38,064 nt of DNA from IMG/VR virus record IMGVR_UViG_3300035670_000617, positions 1 to 38,064 of that record; one strand, 5' to 3'. Positions 28,425 to 36,512 of the stretch are shown here, piece after piece; within the stretch, counting starts at the first letter, position 1, and every line of letters begins with the position of its first letter. Under the pieces are notes generated by a model. That model saw only the letters and a program-made list of their open reading frames with translations. It was not told the origin of the DNA and ran no database searches. Both the position numbers and the translations under genes were made by a program. The DNA comes from a virus.

Positions 28425-28867
28425 TTTCCCACCTTTCTGTTTAGCCTCTTGTTGGATTGGTGCGCACGTTCTTCTGCGGTCCACCTCGATACATGGATTT
28501 CACGGGTAGGCACAGCAGCGCGCAGGATGCCCGACCTTTCCCCTTCGTCTGTCATGCCAGTCAGTGCCTCGGTTATCCATTCGCGCGCCTCGGTGGGCAG
28601 GGCGGGCCGCTCTATGGCCGCTGCTATCCATCCCCATCCACCCGTGGCCGCATCATAGTTACGGCAACCCTCTATCCGATAGATGCAATGATGCAAAGTG
28701 ACTAAGCATCCATGCGGCTCATGCGGGATAACCATCCACCGCAATGTCCGTTGCAAGTTTGCTTGTTCGCACCTTAGCGAGTCAAGCAGCTGACACGCGG
28801 TTAGCCCGTGTGGGGAAGCGGCAACCAGACGCATCAGGATGCGCCCTATCAGAGATTCATCTACCAT
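28421..28867 (-). CDS. Winged-helix-like protein downstream of the primase
   Basis: The 148-residue protein has an N-terminal segment that reads like a winged helix (MRLVAASPHGLTACQLLDSLRCEQANLQRTLRWMV, about 12-46) followed by a basic C-terminus. It begins at the last base of the primase-polymerase stop, so it is coupled to it. It could bind the origin or regulate the operon. No family is assigned. Confidence 0.6.
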   Translation of the reverse strand: MVDESLIGRILMRLVAASPHGLTACQLLDSLRCEQANLQRTLRWMVIPHEPHGCLVTLHHCIYRIEGCRNYDAATGGWGWIAAAIERPALPTEAREWITEALTGMTDEGERSGILRAAVPTREIHVSRWTAEERAHQSNKRLNRKVGK

Positions 28868-31038
28868 CAGAAACTACTCCCTATTGAGTAGCAGGGCCGG
28901 CTGATGCCGGTCTCTGCGCGTCCTGATACCTTGTAGATCACTTCTTCCTTGACCATCAGCTCCAGGGCGCGTTCAAATACCCGGTCAGCGTTTGCGCCCA
29001 ACTCAGTCAATACCCGCTTTGACATCAGCCGCCGGCGCAATACCGGCTCCGGGATCATATCCTTGTTGTCCAGCATAGGAGCCGGGCAGCCGTATGCTTT
29101 GCGCGTCTTCTTCGGCATCTTTGCCCATCCGAGTATTTCCTTTTTGATGATCGCCTGCACAGCGACATATCCGTTTGAATGTTCACCGGACTGGTACTGT
29201 GCAATCATGTTATCGACGCATACGTTGACTGTATCCACTGCCCACCTCGCTTGTTGTTCGTTGATGACAGGCCGTAGGTTGTCTTCCAGCACGGCGCACA
29301 ATGCAGACAGTTTCAGAGCGTGCAAATGCGCACGATTGCGCAATTCATCATCCACGCTATCGCCGCCGGCATTTATTTGATCCGTGGTCTTGCGCTCATA
29401 CTCTTCCAATATTTCAGCAGCTCGCGCATCCTGTTCAACGTGGATCACCTTGTCCGTCAATTCGTTCGCGCATGATGTCTCAGCTACCAATCGCACGGCA
29501 TGATGTAGATCGGCTGGCATGTTCTGCGGTGGCCTTTGATTCAAATACGAACGCGCGCCATCGTACTGGACAATCAGGAATCGCGGGATGAGTCCCTCTG
29601 CAATGTGCGCCTCCTGAATCTTTTCAAAGAACGTTTTTGATGCGCTTTCCCCGATGAACGAAAACGCCGGACCGCTGATGACATCTGTGTTCTTATCGTC
29701 TTGCGCGTAGGCATACGCGCGCAGGATGGAACCGTGCCCGCTCTTGCTGAACAGATCGAGATAAACCTTTTTCATCATCGCCATATGTCCGATGGTGGCG
29801 TCATGCATCTGTGCAAGCATATGCGCAAACTCACCATGGATTGACACAAAACACGGAGTCTTTGCCACCGTCTTCAAGAGCGCTTGTCCGCTCGCGAATT
29901 GCGCAGGCCCCATGCGTAGCGTGATACCGGCCACGTCTTTAATCAATTCGGAGATGACAGATTCCACACCACGCGCGACGCCCTCTTTGCCTCTACCAGT
30001 TCCGGCTATCAGGATGATATACAGATTCAGGCCGGCAGAGCTGATATTGTACGCGCGTCCAGAAATGCCGGCCATGACACCAAGGGCAGCGACAATGCCA
30101 ACTTCGTCAAACGGCCGGCGCGCGTTGTCCGAGATATGCCGTGCCAGTTCTCCCATGCGCCCTGGCGGGAATGCGATCTTCTTTTTCGGTTCTTCCTTGT
30201 ACGCTGCGGTTGCTGTAATTGCTTCGATTGCTGTATGTGTTTTCAGTTCCTCTTGCCTAGGTGCGTTACGGATAGTCCGGCGCAGGTAGTCATCCCGCTT
30301 GGCCTTGTCGCGCTTGCCTAATCCGGACGCGCGGAACATGCGCATCACTTGATCCTCGTTCTGCGTGTAGAAAAGCAAATGCGAAATCAATGCTGAGTCC
30401 GCCTCCGATTGCGATCCGTATCGCGACCAATCGCCGCCTAGCAATGCCTTCACAGCATGGGCATTGCTGGCCCTGCCGATGCGCTCCATGATGTCATCAT
30501 CTGATTCGGTGGCCTCTCCTGTGGTTGTCACTACGGCCGGCCGATCCTGCAAGAAGAACCAGTCGAGGAACGGCTGACGGTTTTCGATCTGATGCGCTCG
30601 CACAACATCGCCGGTACAGATCATGTATCTGTCAAACGAGTACGCCTCAATCTGTCGCTTCGCATCTTTGTAAGCACGTGGAATTTTCCCGCGGACGATG
30701 ATGTGATAGCCGGACTTCTGGCAGCTTCTCTCCGTGTAGCTATCCACCAGGTCTATGATCCATTCATGTTCTTCTTTGATTTCCGGATCGCTGATTTCGG
30801 TCTTGTCCAGATCGATGATGGTGAAATCGTCGTCATGGGTGAGCACGTATCCACACCACGGAAAATCTTTGACGACTTGGCACGCTTCGAACGATGACCA
30901 CGTTTTCGGATCTGTGCTGGATGCGTATTGTCCATTTGGTTGGAACGGAGGTTTCGTAATATTTCCATCCCTGATGACAGGACGGGATACCACCCACTGT
31001 GGACGTGCGATTAGCGGCTTCAGAAAATCAGAATTCAT
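28867..31038 (-). CDS. Primase-polymerase with DUF3987 helicase-like domain
   Basis: This 723-residue protein joins an N-terminal PrimPol domain to a C-terminal DUF3987-type ATPase. PrimPol motifs are IIDLDKT (D76, D78), SGYHIIV (H112) and AYSFDRYMICTGD; a PriCT-like helical part (about 210-260, ASGLGKRDKAKRDDYLRRTI) follows. The ATPase has a Walker A, AGTGRGKEG (345-353). Such proteins prime and may copy DNA and unwind it. It appears to be the only DNA polymerase-type gene here. It overlaps the SF2 helicase gene by 11 bp. Confidence 0.85.
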   Translation of the reverse strand: MNSDFLKPLIARPQWVVSRPVIRDGNITKPPFQPNGQYASSTDPKTWSSFEACQVVKDFPWCGYVLTHDDDFTIIDLDKTEISDPEIKEEHEWIIDLVDSYTERSCQKSGYHIIVRGKIPRAYKDAKRQIEAYSFDRYMICTGDVVRAHQIENRQPFLDWFFLQDRPAVVTTTGEATESDDDIMERIGRASNAHAVKALLGGDWSRYGSQSEADSALISHLLFYTQNEDQVMRMFRASGLGKRDKAKRDDYLRRTIRNAPRQEELKTHTAIEAITATAAYKEEPKKKIAFPPGRMGELARHISDNARRPFDEVGIVAALGVMAGISGRAYNISSAGLNLYIILIAGTGRGKEGVARGVESVISELIKDVAGITLRMGPAQFASGQALLKTVAKTPCFVSIHGEFAHMLAQMHDATIGHMAMMKKVYLDLFSKSGHGSILRAYAYAQDDKNTDVISGPAFSFIGESASKTFFEKIQEAHIAEGLIPRFLIVQYDGARSYLNQRPPQNMPADLHHAVRLVAETSCANELTDKVIHVEQDARAAEILEEYERKTTDQINAGGDSVDDELRNRAHLHALKLSALCAVLEDNLRPVINEQQARWAVDTVNVCVDNMIAQYQSGEHSNGYVAVQAIIKKEILGWAKMPKKTRKAYGCPAPMLDNKDMIPEPVLRRRLMSKRVLTELGANADRVFERALELMVKEEVIYKVSGRAETGISRPCYSIGSSF

Positions 31039-32566
31039 ACGCCTTCACCTCAGCGAACTTGCCAGCAGTTGAAACGAAAATTTTCTTTGGAACTTTGAAC
31101 GTGTTACACAATCGCACGGCATCATCGGCATTGTCAACTTTGAACGGGGTGCGCTCTGCAATCCATTGGTCCGCCTTGCGACCTGCGAAGCCGGGGTAAC
31201 CAATGCATATCCATTCGCGGAACACCGCAAACCCGCAATGATACAGGACGTTCAGCGACCGGCGATCCCCTTTGTCGTGTATGCGATATTGCACGCTGTC
31301 CACTGTGGCCCACCGTTCCGTTTGCGTTCCGCGGTATTCCGCAGAGTGCTTAGTCAGGTTGACCGCCTGCGGAAACTCATGACCGCACGGGCAGATGCGG
31401 ACAGACGCATGAAGCAGCAGGTAGCAGTCAGGACACATTTTCATGGGAGGCGGATCGCCGGTCTTGTGTGCCCTTCGAGGCGGGACGATCATATCGATTG
31501 GCCCCATGCGCATCGTATTCCTTCCGTAGTCCAGTACCATGCAATCGGTTTTGTCCGGTGCCGGGCGCGTGCCTCTGCCAAGCATCTGCACCCATAGCCC
31601 GGGCGATTGCGTTGGTCGAAGTACCGCAATCAGATCGATCTCTGGACAGTCAAAACCAGTGGTAAGAATTCCTGCGTTGACTATCGCGCGCAGTCCGCCT
31701 GCTTTGAATCGCTCTATTGTTTCGTCTCGTTCTGCGGTTGGCATCCGACTGTGTACCGCTTCGCAATCGATGCCGCGCGCCTGCAGGTAATTCCGCATGT
31801 GTTCTACATTCGCGATGGACGCGCAAAAGATCAACCACCGTTTGCGCTCTTGCCCCTGTAGGCATATCTCATCAGCAGCGCTGGACAATACGCGATCCAT
31901 GGCCTTGGACAGTTCCTCCGGCTGGTAGTCTCCGCAGCGCGTATGGATGCCATGCAGGTCAACATCATTGCGCGGTGCCTTGGCTACCAATGGCGCAAGG
32001 TATCCGGATTTGATCAACTCATCAAAGTGCTTTTTCTTAGTCAGGTCATAAGCAACTTGATCCCATAGTTCACCATCTGTCAGCAGCCCATACCGCAGGC
32101 GATATGGCGTCGCAGAAAATCCAACTACCTTCACGGCGGGATTGTTCCGCCGTGCCGATGCGATAATCCGCGAGTACATGGTATCCTCTTCGTCGTTGAC
32201 TAGGTGACACTCATCAATGACTATCAAATCAGCACGAGGAACTTCCCTGTTGGCGAGCGTTGCGACTCCTGCGAAGGTGACCTGCTTGCATTCATACCGG
32301 CGCAGCCCTGCGGACATGATGCCGATCTCTACATCCGGCAACAATCGCTGTAATGCTTTCGCGTTCTGTTCTATCAATTCCTTCCGGTGTGTGATCATGA
32401 GCACGTGTTGATCCGGGTATGTCAATGCGTGCTCAATCAATCCGGCGATCACAACTGACTTGCCAGTGCCGGTCGGCATGGCAACGATTGGATTCCCGGT
32501 GTATTGCCGGAAGTAGCTCATTACAGCGCGCAGGGCTGCGCCCTGATATGGACGCAATTGGATCAT
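31028..32566 (-). CDS. SF2 DEAD/DEAH-type helicase
   Basis: The 512-residue protein shows SF2 helicase motifs in order: MPTGTGKS (30-37), THRKELIEQ (Ia region), DECH (118-121), SAT (151-153), ILTTGFDCPEIDLI and QMLGRGTRPA (motif VI). After the helicase core comes a four-cysteine ribbon (CPDCYLLLHASVRICPCG) and a C-terminal domain of about 120 residues. It likely remodels DNA during phage replication or recombination. It lies between the DUF669 and PrimPol genes. Confidence 0.88.
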   Translation of the reverse strand: MIQLRPYQGAALRAVMSYFRQYTGNPIVAMPTGTGKSVVIAGLIEHALTYPDQHVLMITHRKELIEQNAKALQRLLPDVEIGIMSAGLRRYECKQVTFAGVATLANREVPRADLIVIDECHLVNDEEDTMYSRIIASARRNNPAVKVVGFSATPYRLRYGLLTDGELWDQVAYDLTKKKHFDELIKSGYLAPLVAKAPRNDVDLHGIHTRCGDYQPEELSKAMDRVLSSAADEICLQGQERKRWLIFCASIANVEHMRNYLQARGIDCEAVHSRMPTAERDETIERFKAGGLRAIVNAGILTTGFDCPEIDLIAVLRPTQSPGLWVQMLGRGTRPAPDKTDCMVLDYGRNTMRMGPIDMIVPPRRAHKTGDPPPMKMCPDCYLLLHASVRICPCGHEFPQAVNLTKHSAEYRGTQTERWATVDSVQYRIHDKGDRRSLNVLYHCGFAVFREWICIGYPGFAGRKADQWIAERTPFKVDNADDAVRLCNTFKVPKKIFVSTAGKFAEVKAYEF

Positions 32567-33016
32567 TTACTTCCGTGCCCACGGCGGTGCCGCAACTGTG
32601 GACGTTGCGGGCTTATTGTCAAAAGGGAGCCAGCGCTTGACATCGTTGGACGCCTGGTATTGTCCGACAGCAGGGCGCACGACAACAGAGATGACATGAT
32701 CGATCCCAATGAGCTGATTGGTGTCGTTTACTTTTTCAAAGTCCAGCCCCATCGCGTCGCACATCTTTTTGAGCTGTCCGTTGGCGATCTGCACCGTCTT
32801 TTCGTTTGGATTCCACAGGTTCAGGTTCATGTACAGCCGGCGGTTCCGGTACTGCCCTTCTGTGATCACATAGGTGATCTTCAGATATGAGCCGGTGCCG
32901 GATTTCGTTTCTTTCTTTTCCACTTCGATGATCTGTGCCTGATACTCCCCTTCCGGCAGTGGCTCAAAGTCGTTTTCTGGCAGGTTTGTTCTGTCAATTT
33001 TCAATTCCATTTTCAT
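32567..33016 (-). CDS. DUF669 protein (ssDNA-binding type)
   Basis: The 149-residue protein has FEPLPEGEYQAQIIEVEKKETKSGTGSYLKITYVITEGQYRNRRLYMNLNLWNPNEKTVQIANGQLKKMCDAMG, the OB-fold-like core of DUF669. These genes stand beside Sak4-like ATPases in many phages and are thought to bind single-stranded DNA. Here they are neighbours and overlap as ATGA. The start at 33016 follows GGAGA; the ATG two codons on is also possible. Confidence 0.82.
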   Translation of the reverse strand: MKMELKIDRTNLPENDFEPLPEGEYQAQIIEVEKKETKSGTGSYLKITYVITEGQYRNRRLYMNLNLWNPNEKTVQIANGQLKKMCDAMGLDFEKVNDTNQLIGIDHVISVVVRPAVGQYQASNDVKRWLPFDNKPATSTVAAPPWARK

Positions 33017-33741
33017 TCTCCTACTTTTGTGAACACGCTATCAAGTTCTGCGTTGTCTCTTTTATCCGCTGCCACCACGGCGGCGGAAATTTTGCTGAAA
33101 ATTTTGGACAGGTCCGGTTCTTCGATTTCGTCAAGCACTCCGGAGCGATCTTTCGCGATGGCCTTGCCATCCCCCTGTGTGAGCAGATAGCGGTATGATG
33201 TGCCATCCGCGAGCTTGCCGATACTCATGCGGAAAACCTCATCGTACCAGTATGGCAGGCGCGGGCCGAGCTTGGAGCCTGGAAGCAATGGACCATATGC
33301 GGTGGTGTCGTCGTCTGCGGCGATGCGCTCCTCTTGCGCGCTGAAATAGACGTGCTTGCCTCGCATGTCTCGGAATGATTTGATGATCTGTGTCATCTCA
33401 TCGATTAGCTCGCCGTATGCCTTGCGGACATCTTTGTTGTTCTTCTTTGCGTTGGCGAGAACGACTTCGCCCAACTCCGTGATTGAGTCAATACAGATCG
33501 TGTCAAACCCTTTCGCCTCTTCGCCAGTGGTCCATAAGTACGCGTCCCGCAGATCGTCCATCGTCGCAATCTCAATCATCGGGATGTCATATCCGCGTAA
33601 TGACAGCGTGCCGGATTCTGCACTGATAAGGATCGGCCTCGGTGCCGTAGCAATCAGACGCGTCTTGCCGACGCCGGAGCGACCGTACACGAGCACTTTG
33701 ATTCCGTTCTCTGCTGTGTTTTTTGTTGTTGTGAGTTTCAT
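33013..33741 (-). CDS. Sak4/RecA-like AAA ATPase
   Basis: The 242-residue protein has a Walker A, YGRSGVGKT (19-27), and Walker B, FDTICIDSIT (79-88), in a RecA-type core, as in phage Sak4/NTP-binding recombinases. They help single-strand annealing together with an SSB, here probably the adjacent DUF669 protein. AGGAGGAATGAA precedes the ATG. At 242 residues it is near the usual Sak4 size. Confidence 0.85.
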   Translation of the reverse strand: MKLTTTKNTAENGIKVLVYGRSGVGKTRLIATAPRPILISAESGTLSLRGYDIPMIEIATMDDLRDAYLWTTGEEAKGFDTICIDSITELGEVVLANAKKNNKDVRKAYGELIDEMTQIIKSFRDMRGKHVYFSAQEERIAADDDTTAYGPLLPGSKLGPRLPYWYDEVFRMSIGKLADGTSYRYLLTQGDGKAIAKDRSGVLDEIEEPDLSKIFSKISAAVVAADKRDNAELDSVFTKVGE

Positions 33742-34451: not shown

Positions 34452-34964
34452 TCATCTCCACCTTTCTATCTTCCGCATTCGTGCGGATATTTTGCGTTCG
34501 ATCTGCTCTGTCCGTGCGTCACATGCGCCGGTCGCGTAGGCCGTGAGCGCTCCACGCTCATCACCGCAATGGTCAAGGCAGCGACGATACCAGCGCGCAC
34601 CGCAGAGCAATTGACCGGCCCGCGTGGTCATATCATGCGGACATCCGCGAAGTGCGACGCCGTGCAATTGCAAGATACCGATTTCCTGCCGTGCCTCGCC
34701 GATGGCCTCCGTTCGAAACGACGATTCCAAGAAAGCAAGCAGCGTAATCGTCGTCCGGTCCACGCCGTACTCATCCGCAGCGGTCACAATCTCAACGGCA
34801 AGGGCTCGTTGTTCGTCAATGTCCGTGGCAAGTGTCCGCGTGGGTGCCGGCTCCATCAGATCTGCGATGATCGTCCTGACGTGTTCCACGTGCGCATCGT
34901 CAACAGCCGCGCACATATGCGGGATCGCGAGTAGGATGATTAGGATGGTGAGTAGTGGTTTCAT
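34452..34964 (-). CDS. Exported lytic transglycosylase (SLT-type)
   Basis: The 170-residue protein has an N-terminal signal peptide (MKPLLTILIILLAIPHMCAA, likely cut after residue 20) and an SLT-type domain: LLAFLESSF (catalytic E80), GILQLH (96-101) and LTAYATGAC near the end, in the order of soluble lytic transglycosylases. It would cut glycan strands in the periplasm. A Sec-exported enzyme in the early operon differs from the cytosolic amidase and could act in lysis or in exclusion of other phages. An R-x-E-R basic end follows. Confidence 0.78.
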   Translation of the reverse strand: MKPLLTILIILLAIPHMCAAVDDAHVEHVRTIIADLMEPAPTRTLATDIDEQRALAVEIVTAADEYGVDRTTITLLAFLESSFRTEAIGEARQEIGILQLHGVALRGCPHDMTTRAGQLLCGARWYRRCLDHCGDERGALTAYATGACDARTEQIERKISARMRKIERWR

Positions 34965-34979
34965 TTCATTCCATTCTTT

Positions 34980-35174
34980 TCAACCATGACAAGCGCTGTG
35001 CGTTGTCGTGTCATGGGTTGCCTTTGCTACGCCGAGCGGTGCTCCGCGCCGCAGTGCCTTTGCTGCGCAAAGCGTTGCACCGCGCCGCAGTGCCTTTGCT
35101 GCGCCGGGCTTGGCGCTGCTGTGCCTTTGCACCGCGATGCCCGGCCCGGCCGAGCCATTGCTACTCTCTTTCAT
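34980..35174 (-). CDS. Small basic repeat protein (possible)
   Basis: A 64-residue frame starts at an ATG overlapping the stop of the RAMP-like gene and consists largely of 12-residue repeats (AKALRRGATLCA, AKALRRGAPLGV, AKATHD...) encoded by 36-bp direct repeats. Repeat length divisible by three and the overlap favour a gene. The GC-rich repeat could also be a non-coding element that happens to be open. It is only modestly supported. Confidence 0.4.
   Translation of the reverse strand: MKESSNGSAGPGIAVQRHSSAKPGAAKALRRGATLCAAKALRRGAPLGVAKATHDTTTHSACHG
35019..35130. repeat. 36-bp GC-rich direct repeats
   Basis: Two full 36-bp units (35019-35054, 35055-35090), a shortened third (35091-35121) and a degenerate fourth all begin TGCCTTTGCT or TGCCTTTGCA. 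Each contains short complementary segments that can form hairpins. They lie between the RAMP-like and transglycosylase genes. Confidence 0.8.
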
Positions 35175-35763
35175 AGCTGGCAGAGAACCGGCCCTTTCCG
35201 CTGTTGCGCCACTGTCCGAGTCCGCGTTTCGCACCGTATTCCAGCCACTCGACCACGACCTTTTCCAACTTCTTGTCGAGGCATTCGACTTCGAATTCAA
35301 TCGACGTTCCAGCCGGTGCGCTGTCACTGCACGAAAGGGAAACGCGCTCACCCTGTGCCGTCTGCGCGCGCAATGGCCGCTGACATTCTCCGATCTTTTT
35401 CCCATCCGGGATGATGATCGGGATCTCGCGCGGATACACGAAGATCAACCCGTCGATGTTCTTCTTGTATGCCTTCAACTCTTTCGACTTCGTGCCGGCC
35501 ACGCGCGTCAACATCCCGCAGGCGTCCTTGAAGAAGCCCTTGATCTGATAATCCCACAAGTGAGGCACGCCATCGGCGTTGCGCGGGAAAACGGTTTTAC
35601 CCTTCGCGGCAACTTCATCAACGCCGACGGATTCAATCTCTTCCTCCCGTGACGGCGCATCCGGTGCGTTCGCCGCAATGAATTCTCGGTACACTTCCGG
35701 ATTGTTCGGCGCAGTACCAAGCAACTCTTCTTCAAATACAATTCTTACTTTCATTCTTTCCAT
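35161..35763 (-). CDS. Phage protein with RAMP-like glycine-rich loop
   Basis: The 200-residue protein is of a type I recall as uncharacterised in other phages (FPRNADGVPHLWDYQIKGFFKDACGML, then KKNIDGLIFVYPREIPI). Near the C-terminus GLGQWRNSGKG (181-191) matches the RAMP pattern GhGxxxxxGhG except for the last hydrophobic position. The alternating strands and helices could be ferredoxin-like folds as in Cas5/Cas6/Cas7. No CRISPR array or cas genes are near. A nucleic-acid-binding role is inferred. Start 35763 (or 35754) follows AAGGAAAGG. Confidence 0.6.
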   Translation of the reverse strand: MERMKVRIVFEEELLGTAPNNPEVYREFIAANAPDAPSREEEIESVGVDEVAAKGKTVFPRNADGVPHLWDYQIKGFFKDACGMLTRVAGTKSKELKAYKKNIDGLIFVYPREIPIIIPDGKKIGECQRPLRAQTAQGERVSLSCSDSAPAGTSIEFEVECLDKKLEKVVVEWLEYGAKRGLGQWRNSGKGRFSASYERE

Positions 35764-35931: not shown

Positions 35932-36135
35932 TCAAAGCACATCCTTGCAAAACTCACAGATTGCTCGATGGAACGGATCTCTGCTGACCTCGGCACTTTT
36001 CGGAATCAAATTGTTAGGATCTGTAACTTCAATCACTCCTTGTCCAGAACACATTCGGCACGTTTCGGAACTTCGTTCTTCATCGATAATCCAACCGCGC
36101 CCAGAACATGATTGACAGTATACCAGTTTCTTCAT
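35932..36135 (-). CDS. DnaJ-type zinc-finger small protein
   Basis: The 67-residue product has CQSCSGRG and CRMCSGQG, the CxxCxGxG repeats of the DnaJ zinc finger, followed by VTDPNNLIP. A second copy of this kind is at 37294-37485 (with DDPENLIRPE). The ATG at 36135 overlaps the VRR-NUC stop as ATGA. Such short proteins may be metal-binding cofactors. Its two extra C-terminal cysteines (CEFC) are not in the paralogue. Confidence 0.68.
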   Translation of the reverse strand: MKKLVYCQSCSGRGWIIDEERSSETCRMCSGQGVIEVTDPNNLIPKSAEVSRDPFHRAICEFCKDVL

Positions 36136-36512
36136 GGCATATACCCTTCGCAATAGTCTTCTATCATCCGGACGGCTTCACTAATCGATCTAGCTACCCT
36201 GGCACAATACCCGCTTTCGGCTAGATCTTCAAGCCACATTTTTTGTTCAGGAGAAATTTTTCCTCTCTCCGTTTTCATCTCGATGAACATCCCGCAATAC
36301 TGACCACAAGGACGCGCGAAGAACAAGTCAGGCACGCCGGACCGCAGGCCTTCGGCTTTCATGTAGATCGCTGCGCCCATACTGCGCCGGCCTGCGTTCG
36401 GAATTGCAAACATCGGAGCCCTTCCATCCTTCATAATCATGTCCGGCCATTTCGTGCGTACCAGTGTGTTGACGCGGTTGATCACTTCGCGCTGCATTTC
36501 ATGTTCAGTCAT
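36132..36512 (-). CDS. VRR-NUC domain nuclease
   Basis: The 126-residue protein contains the VRR-NUC core: FAIPNAG (N39), EGLRSGVPDLFF (D62), FIEMKT (E78, K80) and SPEQ (Q90), with an ordinary single-domain phage length. Such enzymes resolve branched DNA (Holliday junction resolvase-like). I start it at 36512, where ATGA overlaps the methyltransferase; the frame to 36794 is a shadow of that gene. It likely works in recombination or before packaging. Confidence 0.85.
   Translation of the reverse strand: MTEHEMQREVINRVNTLVRTKWPDMIMKDGRAPMFAIPNAGRRSMGAAIYMKAEGLRSGVPDLFFARPCGQYCGMFIEMKTERGKISPEQKMWLEDLAESGYCARVARSISEAVRMIEDYCEGYMP

Follow-up and report, generated by a model that had tools for sequence, protein, structure and literature searches.

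A solitary phage RAMP gene and its adjoining pentanucleotide array: a likely VIPR-like system

What does a RAMP (Cas5/6/7 superfamily) protein do in a phage that carries no CRISPR locus? The gene that raises this question lies in IMG/VR virus record IMGVR_UViG_3300035670_000617, and "the window" refers throughout to the whole stretch of 38,064 nucleotides that was analysed (Table 1). The original prediction, made from the sequence alone, recognized the gene by a glycine-rich loop in its product and proposed that the protein binds RNA or ssDNA, acts in replication, or interferes with host CRISPR complexes as a mimic. It placed the gene correctly between a VRR-NUC/zinc-finger group and a transglycosylase gene, and its remark on the missing CRISPR locus agrees with our analysis, which found neither a CRISPR array nor another cas gene. 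Its assignment to the RAMPs is also supported, its mimic and replication or ssDNA readings are not, and it overlooked an array of pentamers directly behind the gene.

Table 1. Coordinates of the features discussed
Feature	Coordinates	Strand	Basis or remark
RAMP / Vipr-like protein	35161..35763	minus	200-aa ORF; relatives' alignment, AF2 fold, Foldseek/VIA, hhalign to SUSP1 Vipr
vrRNA-like array	35018..35155	minus	~27 units; GCNNN pentamers, 4 segments delimited by GCAAAG
Hairpin directly behind the array	34984..35016	minus	8-bp stem CCATGACA/TGTCATGG; sequence and fold (196 nt, z -2.56)
SLT transglycosylase, downstream of the array	34452..34964	minus	Not a conserved partner
Small CxxCxGxG zinc-finger protein, upstream	35932..36153	minus	Not a conserved partner: not found in relatives
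VRR-NUC nuclease, possible accessory gene	36132..36512	minus	Near the RAMP gene in only 4/74 relatives
Replication block	28867-33741	minus	NrS-1-like primase (phrog_3022), DEAD/SNF2-type helicase, Sak4-like protein

The RAMP protein and its family

The glycine-rich loop, GLGQWRNSGKG, lies near the C-terminus, as originally described, and was said to fit the motif GhGxxxxxGhG. The strict form is not fully satisfied: the last variable position is K here and K, Y, F, W or A in relatives. On its own the motif is weak evidence for a RAMP, because this lysine is not hydrophobic and because the open frames of the window hold six loose matches (GhGx5GxG; 0.54 expected from shuffling) and one strict match (0.18 expected). 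The RAMP assignment is upheld instead by the predicted fold, the sequence profile and the conserved residues.

An AlphaFold2 model built from a 47-sequence alignment (pLDDT 86.4, pTM 0.80, with residues 21-50 weak) contains an RRM/ferredoxin-like core, and its top PDB matches are Cas7/Csm3, which bears out the check by AlphaFold and Foldseek proposed with the original prediction. The best 50 PDB matches listed by Foldseek are all chains of class 1 CRISPR effectors of type VII or type III, mainly Cas7, Csm3, Cmr4 and Cas7-11, led by 8z4l_F (E 3.9e-8). VIA-align gives a Z of 12.9 over 164 residues (rmsd 4.1) with Lactococcus lactis Csm3 (6xn3_F). Since both the model and the Foldseek and VIA matches point to Cas7/Csm3-type chains, we take the RAMP call to be right.

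Sequence comparisons reach the same superfamily. The family profile matches type VII Cas7 (E 1.6e-4) and Csm4 (E 0.011) in the PDB, 19 of 48 members match the PADLOC Cas7 type III-D model (best 6e-5), and a 64% identical protein in BFVD is auto-named "Cas system-associated RAMP superfamily protein". The C-terminal loop, G(L/I/M)GQWRNSGKGRF, is conserved in the family and aligns with the G-loop of Cas7 and Csm4. Residues conserved in relatives are Y176, G181, QWRN 184-187 and G191-R192; the invariant ones include L15-G16, T57, F59, WDYQIKGF 70-77, K79, RPLR 129-132, S146, W185 and G191. Most relatives start at the position of M4 (35754), an alternative start for the window gene. The catalytic-aspartate motif of Csm3 (VDS) aligns by eye with the segment before T57, where no aspartate is conserved in the family, and target cleavage is therefore not expected. 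With no conserved nuclease partner either, a complex built from this protein probably does not cut.

More than 70 relatives occur in phage and prophage contexts. Those at 35-70% identity comprise 56 loci in IMG/VR, 17 on contigs of bacterial genomes (chiefly Clostridia MAGs, but also Synergistaceae and Atopobiaceae) and four in unannotated faecal phages; the plasmids searched hold no relative. The 33 phage records with relatives give no other RAMP-family match above the cut-off. The RAMP gene is thus a solitary, minimal locus that lacks a CRISPR array and cas genes.

A pentanucleotide array beside the gene

VIPR systems are described in a 2026 preprint from the Doudna laboratory (PMC13142463 / bioRxiv 2026.04.26.720920), which reports phage-encoded RAMPs with adjacent vrRNAs of 9-16 YNNGG repeats. 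According to the preprint, VIPR complexes bind dsDNA by a non-contiguous code in which two bases are paired and one is skipped, and their targets are mostly other phages. Seven types are distinguished, all with GGY/NN "or a related consensus", and arrays that are long, staggered or interspersed with hammerheads are mentioned. The experiments it reports were done on SUSP1 and P. fulva, and the SUSP1 VIPR silences genes of competing phages. A 5-nt periodicity was looked for in the window because the preprint describes pentanucleotide vrRNAs with this latitude of consensus and length.

Over the 200 nt that follow the RAMP stop codon, the G autocorrelation at lag 5 is 0.44 (z 6.4), and no other window on that strand scores higher. 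Five bases beyond this codon an array starts, also on the minus strand; it contains 23 GCNNN pentamers, with GCAAAG recurring every 31-36 nt. Its four segments read GCTCG GCCGG GCCGG GCATC GCGGT GCAAAG; GCACA GCAGC GCCAA GCCCG GCGCA GCAAAG; GCACT GCGGC GCGGT GCAAC GCTTT GCGCA GCAAAG; and GCACT GCGGC GCGGA GCACC GCTCG GCGTA GCAAA. On the minus strand the order is RAMP gene, array, hairpin and SLT gene. Judged from its sequence, the hairpin could be a vrRNA tail or a terminator without a U run; Rfam gives no match in the window.

The array recurs across the family. It adjoins the gene, within 1.3 kb, in 65 of 71 relatives in addition to the window, the remaining six having no array by the score used. 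Downstream of the gene, mean G autocorrelation is 0.283 (lag 5) and 0.193 (lag 10), as against -0.018 (lag 5) in control stretches. Scores above 20 occur in 47 of 157 windows beside the gene and in 19 of 5007 elsewhere in 61 stretches of fetched phage sequence, an enrichment of about 80-fold. Arrays also stand behind the INPHARED relatives L177, L178 and the one in Hydrogenobaculum phage 1, at 28% protein identity.

Could the array belong to something else, such as regulatory repeats or a replication origin, and flank the RAMP gene by chance? Some arrays do lie upstream of the gene instead of downstream, and a few relatives have none. This reading is nevertheless very unlikely given how closely and how often the array accompanies the gene, a link that persists at the 28% identity just mentioned. 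The array also lies on the gene's strand wherever composition permits the test, as in the lower-GC phages, where the signal is confined to that strand (81 against 9.5 in L010, 73 against 11 in L012), and its segments are hypervariable, unlike origin iterons.

Pooled over the family, the unit is G (95%), then C, A or T, then three variable bases, that is, GHNNN with H mostly C. GCRANG hexamers typically follow every 5-6 units (31-36 nt), and the longest arrays reach 163 units. Almost all of the 923 segments pooled are unique. In the few pairs of near-identical segments or stretches, position 2 changes half as often as positions 3-5, and position 1 almost never. No universal 3' tail was seen among the arrays.

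Several further features were noted in individual relatives. In the L010 array, the segment GAAAA GCGGA GCATT GGTAC GACAA GAAACG and the one next to it are nearly identical, with differences confined to unit position 2 and to position 5 of the hexamer, which suggests segment-wise duplication. Two related phages carry a type II hammerhead ribozyme (L010:4458-4523 and L015:4378-4443) ~0.5 kb upstream of their RAMP genes; the preprint, as noted above, mentions hammerheads interspersed in VIPR arrays. Two Clostridia prophages carry a FuFi-1 RNA (Rfam RF02986) ~2.5-3 kb from the RAMP gene (L061:2326-2488 and L068:80-245).

Relation to VIPR, CRISPR effectors and anti-CRISPR proteins

The locus of Escherichia phage SUSP1 (KT454805.2) encodes a 195-aa protein with repeat-bearing flanks, matching the preprint's description, and we read this ORF as the SUSP1 Vipr (type II). 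In hhalign comparisons the window family aligns with it end to end (E 1e-5, probability 82%), a match not decisive alone; an alignment made from seven phage Viprs gives E 1e-5 too, again end to end (171 columns). Against a Csm3/Cas7 alignment the match (E 1.8e-5) covers only 54 C-terminal columns, and SUSP1-type Viprs match Csm3 at E 0.07. Because its profile matches both SUSP1-type Viprs and Cas7/Csm3, the family is relevant to the proposed descent of the CRISPR backbone proteins from phage systems.

Like SUSP1 VIPR, the window locus has one phage or prophage RAMP of ~20 kDa with a G-loop, no CRISPR array, and long intergenic flanks in which tandem pentanucleotides, seen here at the DNA level, combine fixed and hypervariable positions. 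The two differ in the unit, which is GHNNN in the window family rather than GGYNN/YNNGG and has a single near-invariant base (G, 95%) and three variable positions. They also differ in the length of the arrays and their GCRANG punctuation, and in that neither a conserved vap gene nor a tail was found in the window family. The Vipr locus of Vibrio phage 1.266.O, whose protein is 33% identical to SUSP1 Vipr, carries GCANN pentamer arrays (L114:679-1000 and 1592-1837) with a repeated GGGTAAAACTCAAG leader, and these stand between the GGYNN of SUSP1 and the GC-purine-NN of the window family. As the preprint allows "a related consensus", the exact YNNGG unit marks SUSP1-like clades and not all VIPR, and the GHNNN unit is a variant of VIPR rather than a ground for exclusion. 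In its punctuation and its three variable bases per unit the array departs from the published consensus, and it may represent such a variant or an unlisted type.

Since a single gene for a Cas7-like protein is followed by a guide-like array of pentamers, membership of VIPR is the most likely explanation, and gene and array likely constitute a VIPR-like RNA-guided DNA-binding system. The window system probably belongs to the kind already described in the preprint. By analogy with the experiments on SUSP1 and P. fulva, we infer RNA binding, DNA targeting and an anti-phage role for it. The RAMP protein would coat the array RNA with one subunit per pentanucleotide, holding the near-invariant G and the following H, while the hypervariable bases would recognize target DNA through a gapped code. 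Like the SUSP1 VIPR, such a complex would act against competing phages by binding their genes and silencing them. Among the functions originally suggested, RNA binding fits the protein best. A gene that no Pfam or PHROG model matches would thereby become a probable RNA-guided DNA-binding system. Phages of the gut, the rumen and the environment supply no fewer than 65 arrays, ~6,000 repeat units in all, for working out the recognition code. It is more doubtful that the system forms a distinct VIPR type beyond the published seven, with every 31-36-nt segment, up to its closing GCRANG, serving as a separate guide and each pentamer offering three variable bases. If true, one RAMP would read long arrays of several guides, much as in CRISPR, and would do so by a different non-contiguous code.

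The window protein shares with type VII Cas7 and type III Csm3/Cmr4 its fold, its G-loop and a WDYQIKGFFK segment similar to the xGSSLKG motif, but the gene lacks a cas operon and a CRISPR array, no catalytic Asp is conserved by eye, and the RNA array has a different design from that of CRISPR. This resemblance also invites the reading that the protein is an anti-CRISPR subunit mimic, an idea that the original prediction raised in general terms: as a Cas7/Csm3-like protein it would join host type III complexes and poison them. A solitary gene for a Cas7 fold in a mobile element, unaccompanied by other RAMPs, would suit such a role, and there is a precedent in AcrIB3, which mimics Cas5 and is 38% identical to the host protein (PMC13131331). 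A mimic should be close in sequence to host Csm3 and should follow hosts that have type III systems. Identity of the window family to Cas7/Csm3 chains in structural alignments is only ~8-17%, however, and single-sequence hhalign to host Csm3/Cas7 gives E-values of 0.43 and 0.043. The family is broad and old and has invariant motifs of its own, WDYQIKGF and RPLR. Type III RAMPs occur in 4 of 17 prophage hosts and, by a different HMM, in 25 of 148 of a class sample, which is no enrichment, and a link to type III hosts was rejected. The mimic reading also leaves the constant, guide-like companion array unexplained, an RNA-like array of its own that sets the family apart from AcrIB3, and we regard it as highly improbable.

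Targets and genomic surroundings

Natural targets of the VIPR-like system were searched for in 3.1 Mb, counted on both strands, by pairing variable positions 3-4, 4-5 or 2-3 or the triple 3-5 with 0-3 skipped bases; under no skip rule did any target rise above shuffled controls. Apparent excesses came from unmasked arrays, whose spacing equals the 5-nt period, or from simple repeats, and were rejected. Scans of IMG/VR for the exact decoded patterns returned no match. These results are compatible with the existence of targets, because the databases are small, matching was exact, and the code of the array is not given.

The gene's position suggested another role. In the window it sits among early genes of the minus strand, in one block with those for Sak4, helicase and primase, and relatives are often near SSB, ERF or primase genes. 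Such surroundings in early DNA metabolism would suit a phage ssDNA-binding or recombination factor built on a RAMP fold. Yet an ordinary SSB is also encoded in 12 of the 33 phage records, the neighbours vary widely, Cas7 folds bind RNA guides, and the array would again have no explanation. A factor of this kind is thus a most improbable identity for the protein, and the ssDNA-binding or replication role of the original prediction gives way to the guide-like array as the gene's constant companion. Replacement of SSB as a general role was rejected on the same SSB count.

In the relatives' neighbourhoods no constant vap gene was seen and no gene cluster recurs beside the RAMP gene in most loci; an obligate partner gene was accordingly rejected.

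Repeats of other kinds occur elsewhere in the window. An identical 24-nt tandem repeat (CCCTGTCGCCGCCGGTCATGGTCG) is found at both contig ends (1-123 and 37861-38064) and encodes a repeated MTGGxRAT on the minus strand; the phage genome probably has either a circular form or terminal redundancy, with the cut falling inside the CCCTGTCGCCGCCGGTCATGGTCG minisatellite. A tandem CCCGTA hexamer/18-mer repeat lies at 843-931.
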